Source of the DNA: Sinomonas sp. P10A9
GTDB lineage: Bacteria > Actinomycetota > Actinomycetes > Actinomycetales > Micrococcaceae
Length of the DNA: 64,000 bases
Assembly: GCF_041022165.1 (NCBI RefSeq)
Contig: NZ_CP163302.1
Coordinates: 3,720,001-3,784,000 of the forward strand
Direction of reading: 5' to 3'
Under the pieces are notes generated by a model. It was not told the origin of the DNA, made no database searches, and saw only the letters and a list, made by a program, of their open reading frames with translations. Positions 1 through 41,338 of the stretch are shown one piece after another; the first letter of the stretch is position 1, and each line of letters begins with the position of its first letter. The position numbers and the translations under genes are program-made.

Positions 1-2698
<2,698 letters not shown>

Positions 2699-4806: not shown

Positions 4807-5038
4807 GTTTCGCTCCTCCAAGGTGTAGTCAAACAGTTGCAGTAAAAATGGCGGTCCGCAGATGCGTCCCGCCACCTCGATGCACCGTTCGTTCTGCAGC
4901 TTTCCGGAGGGTGACCAGGCGGGGTGAGAACCAGCCGAAGTTCCTCGCCGCGGGCAATACGGTGACTTCAGTGCCGAGAGTGGACTCCACTGCATACGAC
5001 AGCCTTAAATACTAGGCGCCGCGCGCAGGAGCCGCAAA

Positions 5039-5527
5039 TCAGCGGGCCTCGCGACCCAGAACCTCGCGACCCAAGACTTCCTTGAGCCGCGGGACAATCC
5101 TACCGCCCCAGCCGCCGCCCATGATCCGGCGTGCCATCTGGTCACCGGAGTGACCCGCGCGGTAGCCGGCCTGGACCACGGTAAGGCGAGTGCCGCCGTC
5201 GTGCGCCTCGAGCCGGAAGGTGACCGTCGTCGCCATGTCGTTTTCCTCCGACTCGTCCGCCCACGAGATGACGAGCAGCTCGGGTTCGCGGAGCTCGAGG
5301 ACCTCGCACGCGATGACCCCGGAGAAGCGCGTCGCGGGAATGGGCTCGGTGCGGAAGTGGAAGCGGTGGCCGACCACGGGCGCGAAGTCGTTGGGCATGA
5401 GCCACTCCGCGAGGAGCTCCGGCGTGGTGAGGGCGCGCCAGACGGCGGCGGGCGGTTCGGCAAGGAAGTCCGCTACGCGTACTTCGGTGGGGTTCTCGGC
5501 GCTTGCGGCGTCAGTCGTGTCAGTCAT
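5039..5527 (-). CDS. SRPBCC / AHSA1-like protein
   Basis: A 162-residue protein of the START-like fold: EVRVADFLAEPPAAVWRALT, the TPELLAEWL helix, and a late hydrophobic helix. Its ATG lies 8 nt before the end of the upstream ArsR gene (they overlap), so the two are translationally coupled. The SRPBCC ribosome-binding site is made by the six AAGGAC repeats at the end of arsR. ArsR-SRPBCC pairs are common in actinobacteria; the ligand is unknown. The C terminus carries a short duplication, VLGREVLGRE. Confidence 0.88.
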   Translation of the reverse strand: MTDTTDAASAENPTEVRVADFLAEPPAAVWRALTTPELLAEWLMPNDFAPVVGHRFHFRTEPIPATRFSGVIACEVLELREPELLVISWADESEENDMATTVTFRLEAHDGGTRLTVVQAGYRAGHSGDQMARRIMGGGWGGRIVPRLKEVLGREVLGREAR

Positions 5528-5885
5528 AGTCCTTGTCCTTGTCCTTGTCCTTGTCCTTGTCCTTCTGCAGGAGAGCTGCAAGGCGCGGGACCCGTCCACG
5601 CCAGAACTGCTCGTAGGGTTCGAGCCACACGCGCAGGAGCCGGAGCGGTTCGGGGGTGAGGGAGTAGTAGCGATGGCGGCCGGCCTGCCGCTCGTCCACG
5701 AGTCCGACGCCGCGCAGCACCTTGAGGTGTTCGGCGACGCTCGGGCGGGCCATCTCGTAGCGGTCCGCGAGCGCTTGCGCGGTCTGCGCACCGTCGAGGA
5801 GCGCGGCGAGGAGATCCCTGCGCACGGGGTGCGCGAGCGCCGCGAACACATGGTCCGTGGGGGTCTCCTTGCTCTGGCGGGGCAT
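5520..5885 (-). CDS. ArsR/SdpR-type transcriptional regulator
   Basis: A 121-residue winged-helix repressor. The recognition region ARPSVAEHLKVLRGVGLVDE is followed by a GRHRYY wing. No Cys metal site is seen, so it is not a metal sensor of the classical kind. The C terminus ends in six Lys-Asp pairs encoded by a hexanucleotide repeat. It heads an operon with the coupled SRPBCC gene and probably represses itself through the dyad at 5899-5914. There is no clear Shine-Dalgarno before its ATG. Confidence 0.9.
   Translation of the reverse strand: MPRQSKETPTDHVFAALAHPVRRDLLAALLDGAQTAQALADRYEMARPSVAEHLKVLRGVGLVDERQAGRHRYYSLTPEPLRLLRVWLEPYEQFWRGRVPRLAALLQKDKDKDKDKDKDYD
5529..5564 (-). repeat. (AAGGAC)6 hexanucleotide array at arsR-SRPBCC junction
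   Basis: Six perfect tandem units on the minus strand encode the (KD)6 tail of ArsR. They also present six AAGGA Shine-Dalgarno cores directly 5' of the SRPBCC ATG at 5527. The penultimate core has an 8-nt spacing to that ATG. A hexamer array preserves the reading frame on expansion or contraction. Confidence 0.95.
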
Positions 5886-5898
5886 GAGTCGACATTAC

Positions 5899-5914
5899 GT
5901 AGGAAAAAACCTAC
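5899..5914. promoter_or_regulatory. Candidate ArsR operator
   Basis: The dyad GTAGG - AAAAAA - CCTAC, flanked by ACGT on both sides, lies 13 bp upstream of the ArsR start. It is probably the autoregulatory site. The assignment rests on position and symmetry only. Confidence 0.5.
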
Positions 5915-6064
5915 ACGTCAAGTTCTTGCGCCCGGCCATCGACGCGGGGAATAGATCGGCTCCCCGCTTAGTTGTAACTTCAAGTAAAGGCCGAGAAGGC
6001 CAGCCCGACGACGAAAGCCCGAGCAGTGAGCTTCCTGTCCCGCCTCTTTGGAAAGAAGAACCAC

Positions 6065-6709
6065 ATGAGCGACATCACTATCATCGGCACCGGCAACATG
6101 GCCCGCGGTCTCGCGTCCCGCGCCGTGGCCGCCGGCAAGAGCGTGCAGCTCCTGGCCCACGAGGACAAGGCCAAGGCAGAGGCGATCGCTTCCGAGCTCG
6201 GCGGCACGTTCACCACCGGCGTGGTCGGCGACCCGATCGACGGCTCCATCGTGATCCCGGCCATCTACTTCGACGCCTCCAAGACCATCGCGACCCAGTA
6301 CGGCGATTCGCTCGCGGGCAAGGTCTACGTGGACATCACGAACCCCGTCGACTTCTCGACCTTCGACGGTCTGGCCGTCCCTGCCGGCACCTCCGCCGCC
6401 GAGGAACTCCAGAAGGTCACCCCGGCCAAGGTCGTCAAGGCGTTCAACACGACGTTCGGCGGCACGCTCGTCTCCGGCGCCGTCTCCGGGCAGCAGCTCG
6501 ACGTCCTCATCGCCGGCGACGACGAGACTGCCGTCAAGGCCGTCTCCGACTTCGCCTCCGCCGCGAGCCTCAACCCGGTCGAGGTCGGCCCGCTGCGTCG
6601 CGCCCAGCAGCTCGAGCAGACCGGTTTCCTGAACATCTTGCTCTCCGCCAACGAGGCGCTCCCCGCCTACCAGTGGAACTCGGCCCTGAAGTTCCTCCCG
6701 GCCGTCTGA
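6065..6709 (+). CDS. NADPH-dependent F420 reductase-like protein (COG2085)
   Basis: A cytosolic Rossmann protein with ITIIGTGNMARGLASRAV at the N terminus. An ITNPVDF segment and the AFNTTFGGTLVSG strand are typical of F420H2:NADP+ oxidoreductase-like proteins. ATG 6065 gives 214 residues starting MSDITIIG and has GAAAGAAG upstream. A start at 6026 would add 13 residues (MSFLSRLFGKKNH). Many members annotated this way may have other roles. It is a single gene ended by a strong terminator. Confidence 0.85.
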   Translation: MSDITIIGTGNMARGLASRAVAAGKSVQLLAHEDKAKAEAIASELGGTFTTGVVGDPIDGSIVIPAIYFDASKTIATQYGDSLAGKVYVDITNPVDFSTFDGLAVPAGTSAAEELQKVTPAKVVKAFNTTFGGTLVSGAVSGQQLDVLIAGDDETAVKAVSDFASAASLNPVEVGPLRRAQQLEQTGFLNILLSANEALPAYQWNSALKFLPAV

Positions 6710-6815: not shown

Positions 6816-7307
6816 CTACGCTTCCTGTTCCGCGAGCGCCGCCAGCCGATCCACGGATGCCTGGAGCTTGTCGGCCGTCGTCGCGCGGGCGCGCGGGAGA
6901 CGCTGCGGGTCCTCCAGCCGGGTCCAGTCGTAGGTGTGGCGCACGAGCGTCTGCGCCTCGCCGCGCGGCTCGAGCTCCCATCGCCACAGCTGGCCGATCG
7001 GGGACCTGCCCCCCTCCGCAGGCATCCATGCGATGCGGCGGCCCTCCTCGAATTCGACCACGTGGTTCTCACGGACCGCGTCCTTCGTGAGGGTCATGGT
7101 GAAGACATCGCCCACCGCGGTGACGCGCTGGCCGGTCGGTGCCTCGCGAAGGTTCTCGTTGCCGTCCCAGCGGGGTTGGGCCGCAGGGTCAGCGATGAGC
7201 TCGAAGATGGCAGCAGCGGGCGCGTTGACCACGCGCTCGTAGGCCACGACACGGGATTCAGTGGATTCGGATTCGGATTCGGATTCGGATTCGGGGGAAT
7301 CTGTCAT
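6816..7307 (-). CDS. SRPBCC (polyketide cyclase/dehydrase-like) protein
   Basis: A START-like protein of 163 residues from ATG 7307; an upstream GTG at 7328 would add 7. After an N-terminal Glu-Ser repeat tail come ERVVNAPAAAIFELIADPAA, RWDGNENLREAPTGQRVTAV and a final amphipathic helix. Ligand unknown. It is divergent from the alpha/beta hydrolase at 7426. The Ser-Glu tail is low complexity and probably disordered. Confidence 0.82.
   Translation of the reverse strand: MTDSPESESESESESTESRVVAYERVVNAPAAAIFELIADPAAQPRWDGNENLREAPTGQRVTAVGDVFTMTLTKDAVRENHVVEFEEGRRIAWMPAEGGRSPIGQLWRWELEPRGEAQTLVRHTYDWTRLEDPQRLPRARATTADKLQASVDRLAALAEQEA
7263..7292 (-). repeat. (GAATCC)5 hexanucleotide array
   Basis: Five tandem hexamers just after the start codon of the SRPBCC gene encode (ES)5. 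The array preserves frame and is likely to vary in length. Confidence 0.95.
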
Positions 7308-35138: not shown

Positions 35139-37088
35139 TCAGAAGGGCGGCGGTTTGGGCTCACCGGGGGTGGTGACGTGGGTGCGGCCCAGGGGAGAGG
35201 TCCACGTGATCGTGGCGCCGTGCGAACCCTGTTCCGCGTTCCACACGCCGATCGTCTTGAGTCGATGGTGTTCGGGGCACAAGAGTGCGAGATTGGTCAG
35301 CTCTGTGCTGCCGCCCCGTGCCCATTCGAGGGTGTGGTCCACTTCGGTATGCGCGGAGGGACGATCACACGCCGGGAAACGGCAGTTCGCATCCCGAAGC
35401 ACGATTTGTCTTCGGAGCACGGGCGGCGGGGTATATCGGCTTCGCCCGAGGGCCAGAGGCTCGCCCGTGTCCGGGTCGGTGGGCATGCGCAGCCACCTGC
35501 TGGCTTGGGCGGCGAGGCGTCGAGCCGCCGCCGCGGAGATGAGCCCATAACCGAGGATCTCGCCGGGCTCGCGGCCGAACGCGACCTCCCACGCCTCCTC
35601 AGCACGGGCCGCGCGTGATGCTCCCTCAACGCCCGCCGCGAGCGGCGCTACCTCAGCGCCAGCCTCGCGTGACGCTCCGTCAGGATCGGCCTCGCGTGAT
35701 GCTCCCTCAACGCCCGCCGCGAGCGGCGCTACCTCAGCGCCAGCCTCGCGTGACGCTCCGTCAGGATCGGCCTCGCGTGATGCCCCTTCAACACCGGCCT
35801 CGCGTGGTCCCTCCTCAACACCGGCCTCGGGCGGCTGACGCCGGCGGACCACCGGCACAACGGTGGCCAATGGAACGGTGACCACGAGCTCGGTGCGCAC
35901 TCCTCCTCGCGGGGACGGCGCACCTCCACCCGCATCGGGACCGGTGAGGGCGAGGAGAAGGGCGGTGAAGGCGTCGAGACGGGCCTGCGTGACCGTGCGG
36001 GGGTCGTCGGCGGGCTGGTTGCGCGCAATCGCCTGAAGACGGGTGTCGATCGCCGCCCCATCTTCCAGCGGAAGCCAGGCGGAGAGATGGCACATGCCGT
36101 CGTCAGCGGGCTCGATGTCGACCCGACGATGATCACGCGCAATGCGTGCCCGTTCCTCGAACGTCTCGGACGAGTACTTCTGAGCCAGCCGGCGTACGGC
36201 ACACTGAAGGGCAGGCAGTGAAGGGAGCGGCCCGTCCTCGCCGCCAGCCACCGCAAGTGCCACCGCGCGCGTCATGAATTCCAAGGTTGCGGACACCGGA
36301 ACAGCCACGGCCGCCCGCAGGATGGTCTGAGCGCGAGGACGATCCAGCTCGCCATCGTCCATCGCGACGAGGAGCGGCGCGGCGTAGGTCTCGGTCAGGG
36401 CCAGACACTCGGCTACGAGAGCTCTCGCGGCACGCGGAGGCAGGGACAGCTCGGCGGCGACCTCCGCCGCGGCCAGTGACGGAGCTTGGACCCGCTCGTG
36501 CGGATCCTCGGACTCTGCGCCCAGCAGGATGGCGATCCGACGGACGTCCCGGGCCCGATCAGCGTGAATCTGGGCCTCGGTGGCCTGATGCCGGGACAGC
36601 CCGCCCACGAGCATCTCGACCCGCCGGACGCGCAGTTCGGCCCGGAGCGCGGCCGGAGGGAGCTCCTCGGCCAGCGCGGGATCGACCGTCGCCGGGTCGA
36701 GGCTCTCGGGGCCGAACCCGGTCACGTCGCGTCCGTTGGCATCAACAACCGTGTAGAGCGCCCCGGCCTCCTCGAGATCCGCCACATCGAAGCCCTCGGA
36801 GTCGCACTCCTCGAGCCCGGCGGCCGTCCGCACCGCGGGACTCCGCGCCTCAGACGTCTGCGCCTCCGCGGCCCACTCGTCGAAGTCCGCGCGCCCCGGA
36901 TCTGCCGCCGGATCGTCGAGGTATGCAGGCCACGGGTACGCGCTCGCCCATGAATCCGCGGGAACGGGCCCGAGCGCGGGTGCGCCGACATTGCGCGGCG
37001 ACCACCCGCCGTCGTGCGCCGAACCCGTGAATCTGTCCATGAATCGATCCCACCACCGGGGTCCGACATTTCTCAGCGGCCCGCCCAT
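35139..37088 (-). CDS. DUF222 / HNH endonuclease domain protein (13E12-repeat family type)
   Basis: 649 residues. The middle holds the DUF222 helical domain (LRVRRVEMLVGGLSRHQATE through LSAWLPLEDGAAIDTRLQAI). The C terminus is an HNH nuclease: RQIVLRDANCRFPACDRP, HTEVDHTLEWARGG, LTNLALLCPEHHRLK. Such proteins are multicopy in actinobacteria and of unknown biological role. An Ala/Glu-rich segment between the domains contains two exact-period 81-bp units. The start may be internal (for example Met17), as the first 100 residues are poorly conserved. Confidence 0.85.
   Translation of the reverse strand: MGGPLRNVGPRWWDRFMDRFTGSAHDGGWSPRNVGAPALGPVPADSWASAYPWPAYLDDPAADPGRADFDEWAAEAQTSEARSPAVRTAAGLEECDSEGFDVADLEEAGALYTVVDANGRDVTGFGPESLDPATVDPALAEELPPAALRAELRVRRVEMLVGGLSRHQATEAQIHADRARDVRRIAILLGAESEDPHERVQAPSLAAAEVAAELSLPPRAARALVAECLALTETYAAPLLVAMDDGELDRPRAQTILRAAVAVPVSATLEFMTRAVALAVAGGEDGPLPSLPALQCAVRRLAQKYSSETFEERARIARDHRRVDIEPADDGMCHLSAWLPLEDGAAIDTRLQAIARNQPADDPRTVTQARLDAFTALLLALTGPDAGGGAPSPRGGVRTELVVTVPLATVVPVVRRRQPPEAGVEEGPREAGVEGASREADPDGASREAGAEVAPLAAGVEGASREADPDGASREAGAEVAPLAAGVEGASRAARAEEAWEVAFGREPGEILGYGLISAAAARRLAAQASRWLRMPTDPDTGEPLALGRSRYTPPPVLRRQIVLRDANCRFPACDRPSAHTEVDHTLEWARGGSTELTNLALLCPEHHRLKTIGVWNAEQGSHGATITWTSPLGRTHVTTPGEPKPPPF
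35611..35772. repeat. 81-bp tandem repeat (two copies) in the HNH gene
   Basis: The period is 81 bp (copies start at 35611 and 35692). Each encodes 27 residues of the type GASREADPDGASREAGAEV plus APLAAGV. A smaller GASREA/GVEGASREA sub-repeat continues on both sides. Confidence 0.9.
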
Positions 37089-40269: not shown

Positions 40270-41338
40270 TCCCACGCCCGTGCAGGCTCACGGCGAGCCG
40301 TCCCTGCCGGGTTCCGGCGAGCCCGCCCTGCAGGCCAGGACGTTCGTGTGCATGGGGACGGTCGTGAGCCTCACGATCCCCGTGCAGGCCGGTGCAGCGG
40401 ACGCAGGCTCGGCTGTTCGTCCTGTGCTGTCAGGCCACACCGACGCGGGTTCTACCGCCGCGCACGACGCGCAGGCCGTCGTCGACCGGCTCGAAGCGGC
40501 CACAGCCGTCGTCGAGGACCAGTTCGCCGGCCTCGACGCGCAGTTCAGCCTCTACAAGCCCACCTCAGAGGCGAGCCGGATCGCGCGCGGTGAGCTCTCG
40601 CTCATGGAAGCGAGTCCGCTCATGCGGGACCTGTATGCGGACGCCATCCGCTGGCGGCGGCGCACCGACGGTGCGTTCACGCCCGAGCGGCCGGACGGGC
40701 TCCTGGACCTCAGCGGACTCGTCAAGGGCTATGCGATCGCCGAGGCGGGGCGGTCCCTCGCGGCCCTCGGCCTCACGGACTGGTGCCTCAACGCGGGTGG
40801 AGACGTGCTCGTGTCCGGCTCACCGGCACCTCGACCGCCGATCTCCCGGGACGGCGGGCCACGCGGGGGCGCTGGGGCCTCCGCGTGGCTCGCGGGAATC
40901 GTGGACCCAGCGGATCGGCGCACACTCCTGGGCGCCTATCCGCTGGGTGGAACGGGGACGGCCCCGGACTCGGTCATGGACGCGGTCATGGGCGCGGCCC
41001 CAGGCATGGGAACCAGCCCCGCGGTGTCCGGCCGCGCGCTGTCCGGCCGCGCGCCGCGGCTGGCCCTCGCGACATCTGGCTCGGCCGAGCGCGGCGACCA
41101 CATCTGGACGGTCGGCATCCGCCGCGCTGGAGGCGGCGCCCAGCGCCCGGACTTCGTCCAGGTAAGCGTCGCGGCGTCGGACGTCGTCACGGCCGATGTC
41201 CTGGCCACCGCCATCGTGGCCGGCGGCCGCGCGACCCTCGATACCGTCACCGCCCGCTGGGACGTGGACGTGCTCGTCGTCACGCACGACGGCGCGCTGC
41301 TCGCCACGCCTGGATTCCGCGCCCCGAGCGCGGCGTAG
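40253..41338 (+). CDS. apbE: FAD:protein FMN transferase ApbE-like
   Basis: 361 residues. ApbE fold with CMGTVVSLTIPV, the FSLYKPTSEASRIARG strand, GLLDLSGLVKGYAIAEAG, LNAGGDVLVSG and LATSGSAERGDHIWT. It covalently attaches FMN to Thr in SGAT motifs, here the product of the gene it overlaps by 17 nt. A poorly conserved insertion with a repeated SGRALSGRAP sits at about residues 260-270. No lipoprotein signal peptide is evident at this start, which is unusual for an extracytoplasmic enzyme; it may act in the cytosol or start differently. Confidence 0.88.
   Translation: MQPISDPTPVQAHGEPSLPGSGEPALQARTFVCMGTVVSLTIPVQAGAADAGSAVRPVLSGHTDAGSTAAHDAQAVVDRLEAATAVVEDQFAGLDAQFSLYKPTSEASRIARGELSLMEASPLMRDLYADAIRWRRRTDGAFTPERPDGLLDLSGLVKGYAIAEAGRSLAALGLTDWCLNAGGDVLVSGSPAPRPPISRDGGPRGGAGASAWLAGIVDPADRRTLLGAYPLGGTGTAPDSVMDAVMGAAPGMGTSPAVSGRALSGRAPRLALATSGSAERGDHIWTVGIRRAGGGAQRPDFVQVSVAASDVVTADVLATAIVAGGRATLDTVTARWDVDVLVVTHDGALLATPGFRAPSAA

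Follow-up and report, generated by a model that had tools for sequence, protein, structure and literature searches.

The six perfect AAGGAC units at the junction of an ArsR-family repressor gene and its AHSA1/SRPBCC partner in Sinomonas sp. P10A9 constitute a polymorphic microsatellite (VNTR), as is apparent from a run of perfect units that lies beyond chance and from a difference in copy number between two strains. The array is probably a coding microsatellite that was seeded by a Shine–Dalgarno (SD) core within the overlapping end of the ArsR gene, and whose copy number is near-neutral. All positions refer to the window, i.e. the whole 64,000-nt stretch of contig NZ_CP163302.1 that was analysed, unless another locus is named; the principal features are collected in Table 1.

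Table 1. Location of the repeat array, the two genes that meet at it and associated sequence elements (window coordinates)
Feature	Position	Strand	Remarks
(AAGGAC)6 perfect hexamer array	5529-5564	-	Six GTCCTT units on the + strand; encodes (KD)6, ArsR C-terminus
ArsR/SmtB-family repressor gene, 121 aa	5520-5885	-	HTH_20, HTH_5; NF033788 above cut-off
AHSA1/SRPBCC gene, 162 aa	5039-5527	-	PF08327, E 2.7e-21
AAGGA core of penultimate copy	5536-5540	-	8 nt before SRPBCC ATG; likely working Shine–Dalgarno
GTAGG-N6-CCTAC, candidate ArsR operator	5899-5914	-	Just downstream of TTGACG (5921-5916)

The SRPBCC gene begins with the ATG at 5527-5525 (-), such that its start and the ArsR stop overlap by 8 nt (ATGACTGA). 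The last ArsR codons read CAG-(AAG GAC)x6-TAT-GAC-TGA, giving a protein with the C-terminal end QKDKDKDKDKDKDYD. Lys-Asp can be encoded in four ways; nonetheless, all six units of the array are the same DNA. An earlier note on this stretch had described the array, its coordinates and its coding of (KD)6 within ArsR, all of which is borne out by the sequence. Its placement of the array directly before the SRPBCC ATG holds as to order, but not as to contact, with a single T (5528) lying between the two. With regard to the repressor itself, the match to NF033788 (71.1 against a curated cut-off of 55) is an ArsR/SmtB HTH match, and that to PF12840 reaches 43.1 (cut-off 27); membership of the SdpR autorepressor subfamily is not indicated, the score for NF033789 (58.4) being below the curated cut-off of 100.

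The gaps between the six AAGGA cores and the ATG are 2, 8, 14, 20, 26 and 32 nt. The array had been credited with six AAGGA sites for the SRPBCC start, and six cores are indeed present, but good placement is confined to one of them, the second counted from the 3′ end. The 16S 3′-end pattern GGATCACCTCCTTTCT is found at four places in the P10A9 genome, and AAGGA is therefore able to pair with UCCUU, in keeping with its earlier description as an anti-SD match. One of the four matches lies in the window itself, as a 16S rRNA 3′-end sequence at 1170-1185 (-).

At 36 bp, the array is not a chance event: Markov-1 simulation of 3.2 Mb produced no hexamer array longer than 18 bp, and twenty sampled stretches of the same genome, 400 kb in total, contain three three-copy hexamer arrays but none with four copies or more. 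Amongst 15 Sinomonas genomes, three consecutive AAGGAC units occur at the ArsR junction of P10A9, in Sinomonas sp. ASV486, a genome of the same species, and at one place in G014. Despite the rarity of such arrays in the 400 kb sample, two long perfect hexamer arrays lie only 1.7 kb apart in the window. The second, (GAATCC)5.3 at 7263-7294, is the window's only other hexamer array of at least four copies; it lies close to the 5′ end of another SRPBCC gene and encodes Glu-Ser repeats. Its coding strand is without an AGGA core, yet the array is strain-variable, with one unit fewer in Sinomonas sp. ASV486. The CCGAAT hexamer of this second array recurs, in 3.7 copies, at L093:6151-6172, close to the C-terminus of the product of a sodium:dicarboxylate symporter ORF.

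Sinomonas sp. ASV486 (G011), which belongs to the same species as P10A9 (G000), carries four copies of AAGGAC in place of six, with identical flanking residues. These two strains, to which the comparison of copy number is confined as the only carriers of the array, show 98.2 % identity across those parts of the window that align, counting substitutions only. The repeat number, which the earlier note had proposed to compare in related strains, is thus not constant in relatives, and its suggestion that slippage by whole hexamers would keep the ArsR frame agrees with a difference of whole units that leaves the frame intact. To place this variation in context, 77 repeat rows of the window were merged by hand into 66 stretches, nine of which contain an indel of at least 3 bp between the two strains; together, these hold nine of the 24 such indels, a count that leaves out indels at alignment breaks (e.g. 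at the 81-bp repeat near 35.7 kb). The array is hence slippery, though not the sole varying stretch. Elsewhere in the window, a 15-bp repeat at 41016-41054 differs in length by 45 bp (three units) between the strains, and the alignment to the same-species genome breaks at an 81-bp/27-bp repeat at 35597-35829, where a difference in copy number is probably responsible.

Orthologous loci numbered 13, comprising 12 from 15 genus genomes together with that of S. cellulolyticus; G005, G006 and G009, which yielded weaker ArsR matches only, were not counted. In eight of the 13, both array strains included, an AAGGA core stands 8 nt (seven loci) or 9 nt (one locus) before the start. AAGGA is missing at that place in the other five, which have AAAGAGGAACC (G002, G003 and G004) or other, weaker sequences (G014 and G001). 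Because the core is kept 8–9 nt before the start in eight of 13 loci, the penultimate array copy is likely to be the SRPBCC ribosome-binding site, and the putative role of one copy as the in-gene SD of the overlapping downstream gene is well supported by this positional conservation. No array was found in any of the 11 orthologous loci outside the P10A9/ASV486 species, and relatives with AAGGA at the junction possess one core each. The S. cellulolyticus junction, GAGAAGGAACAGGACC-ATG, aligns gap-free to CAGAAGGACAAGGACT-ATG, i.e. to an array of n=2, at which the ArsR tail would equal in length those of four relatives (G010, S. cellulolyticus, G007 and G001). One SD within the gene would thus suffice as the source of the array. 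Following the ALL/SLL/TLL motif, ArsR tails range from 5 to 27 residues amongst the loci, with some being short (5-6) and others long (18-27), and due to these differences the tail appears tolerant of length change. The tail in G014 (L010) harbours an independent 15-bp repeat of four DES(A/V)Q units. A paralogous ArsR–SRPBCC-like pair with the ArsR tail KDKD is also present elsewhere in both array-carrying genomes (L023 in G011 and L025 in G000), and there the next start is preceded at 9 nt by AAGGA in G011, and by AGGGA in G000.

Conservation extends to the region upstream of the repressor gene, where every one of the 13 orthologous loci has GTAGG-N6-CCTAC before ArsR, immediately following a TTGAC motif. 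This element occurs once in the window and is absent from the 400 kb genome sample, and is a good candidate for an operator through which ArsR may repress its own gene. A consensus promoter scan returned no promoter-like site in 4900-6100.

The course of events that we favour would begin with a Sinomonas ancestor in which the last ArsR codons (K-E or K-D, AAG GAx) contained one AAGGA some 8 nt before the AHSA1 start, a state that we infer, since five of the 13 orthologous loci are without AAGGA at that place. A few point changes in the P10A9/ASV486 lineage may then have created two neighbouring AAGGAC units, from which slippage, as the presumed mutational route, would have generated an array of four units in one strain and six in the other. 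Gain or loss of whole hexamers would leave unchanged both the ArsR frame and the working SD in the penultimate copy. As the ArsR tail tolerates changes in length, copy number would be near-neutral, and no large effect on translation is to be expected.

Searches beyond the genus indicate how restricted such arrays are. The motif AAGGAN-AAGGAN-AAGGA, with an ATG 1-10 nt behind it, was found in one of 197 family genomes, namely P10A9 itself (ASV486 lies outside this set). A looser pattern, requiring four AGGA units with a period of 6 within 3-12 nt of an ATG, was no commoner than its reversed control across 396 genomes of the phylum, the two giving 11 matches each; the forward matches stem from 10 genomes and represent 10 sites (two matches overlap), and those of the control from 11 genomes. 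Besides the ArsR–SRPBCC locus, two of the sites are true boundaries between genes, at which the array encodes the C-terminal end of the upstream protein: at L120 an Fe-S protein ending in (EK)nEQ stands one base before a cytochrome b561 gene, and at L121 a TOBE-domain protein ending in eight Glu plus Thr is followed, via an ATGA overlap, by a solute-binding protein. At L114 the array precedes a glycosyltransferase ORF, and at L118 a DUF924 ORF of uncertain start, and L115, L116, L117, L119 and L122 do not appear to be gene starts. As independent, SD-like arrays that closely parallel the one in ArsR, L120 and L121 suggest that SD-bearing gene ends may now and then seed repeats, but the two do not show selection for such arrays. 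No SD-core array of this type is described in the open-licence literature searched, which included passages of PMC1501019 and PMC4679880.

The earlier note had proposed that copy number could set the level or coupling of SRPBCC translation through the SD sites on offer, and as a device this would entail an array kept by selection as a contingency locus, with the number of SD cores tuning SRPBCC translation or coupling. Such a role would be in keeping with the copy-number difference between strains, the frame-neutral unit and the real SD core inside it. However, the last four copies are common to both strains and provide the same SD cores at 2, 8, 14 and 20 nt; the near-start cores are identical for any n≥3, and the SD-to-start distance is 8 nt for every n≥2, such that the variable copies lie far upstream, beyond useful spacing. 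A spacing model with assumed parameters and an assumed aligned-spacing optimum of 5 is already saturated, with relative sums of 0.004, 1.004, 1.244 and 1.257 at n=1, 2, 3 and 4 and no change up to n=10; a steeper weighting yields 1.000 for n=2 and 1.006 for every n≥3. Relatives also manage with one core at the same distance. The computations do not support an effect through the number of SD sites, and support for tuning by copy number is weak. The lack of an array in the orthologous loci outside the species, the single positive family genome and the parity of the looser pattern with its reversed control stand against it as well, and selection for SD number appears highly improbable. The simpler notion that more copies make a stronger SD was also rejected, as the extra copies are out of range and a single core of the array (CAAGGACA) has a duplex energy of -4.9 kcal/mol, no better than those of the three relatives' words tested (GAAGGAAC -6.0, AAAGGACT -5.3 and AAGAGGAAC -6.3 kcal/mol).

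Copy number could also act through mRNA structure, with the array serving as an unstructured spacer or standby landing pad, further copies of which would keep GC-rich structure at a greater distance from the start and enhance translation of SRPBCC, irrespective of their SD content. In folding predictions, which represent mRNA without the passage of ArsR-translating ribosomes, opening -35..+19 in the native P10A9 flank costs 17.4 kcal/mol at n=2, 12.4 at n=4 and 11.8 at n=6, and this energy drops with n in both strains' flanks, albeit unevenly, from 21.6 (n=1) to 9.6 (n=10) in that of P10A9 and from 19.0 to 9.2 in that of ASV486. With each strain in its own flank, the values are 14.9 (ASV486, n=4) versus 11.8 (P10A9, n=6), and the predicted unpaired value of the SD core in a 160-nt context climbs from 0.35 (n=4) to 0.79 (n=6). 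Against this, the same value does not rise in a 100-nt context (0.91 at n=4, 0.86 at n=6), and the opening energy of the narrower -20..+15 is flat for n≥2 in the P10A9 flank (5.3-6.8 kcal/mol), though less so in the ASV486 flank (5.4-8.5). Substitutions in the flank weigh about as much as copies (12.4 versus 14.9 at n=4), and ribosomes translating ArsR would presumably open the region anyway. Amongst the four control units that lack an SD, three (AGACAG, AAGCAC and GAAGAC) cut the opening energy about as much as AAGGAC or more, and an AAGGAC-specific folding effect was accordingly rejected; any effect of folding would therefore arise from an open spacer and not from SD number. A smaller drop was seen for GCCGAC (no SD, GC-rich) and for GAGGAC, which itself holds an AGGA core. 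On these predictions, a structural effect of copy number that is not SD-specific is possible, but as an account of the array the spacer is unlikely. Quite unlikely, too, is the broader proposal of a frame-neutral contingency repeat built of a ribosome-binding site, which would tune its partner gene via a reservoir of SD cores or an unstructured landing zone and recur where AAG-GAx codons encode an SD at gene overlaps. Selection might alternatively bear on the protein, with the alternating Lys-Asp tail serving ArsR stability or dimerisation; charged tails such as EKE and EKD do recur in relatives, but tail length and sequence vary amongst orthologues and the units are identical in DNA, as recent expansion would give, making this the least probable reading of all.

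If the array is indeed a coding microsatellite of near-neutral copy number, it illustrates cleanly how a microsatellite can grow out of a ribosome-binding site located within the end of a gene, with slippage that may go unnoticed by both genes. Were copy number instead found to alter SRPBCC output, the array would represent a tuning element of an unusual sort, with the repeat itself as ribosome-binding site. Coding microsatellites and VNTRs vary in steps of whole codons within the flexible termini of proteins, and the ArsR array resembles them in its perfect short units, its copy-number difference between strains and its maintained frame, but differs in that its unit also carries the SD core of the downstream gene. 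Gene pairs that overlap, with the SD of the second gene located in the coding sequence of the first, are likewise a known class, to which the 8-nt overlap and the SD in the last ArsR codons correspond, whilst the multiplication of the SD core into an array sets this junction apart. Simple repeats in ribosome-binding-site spacers tune translation in synthetic designs by changing the distance from SD to start; the ArsR array similarly lies beside a start codon, but retains its 8 nt for every n≥2. As regards natural repeats upstream of starts, PMC4679880 describes TAACTGA repeats in Beggiatoaceae, and, in two cyanobacterial strains, mostly 7-nt-step indels around such repeats. As portrayed there, the Beggiatoaceae repeats share with the ArsR array the arrangement of short tandem units over an expected ribosome-binding site, but are mainly intergenic, abundant and of little SD character.
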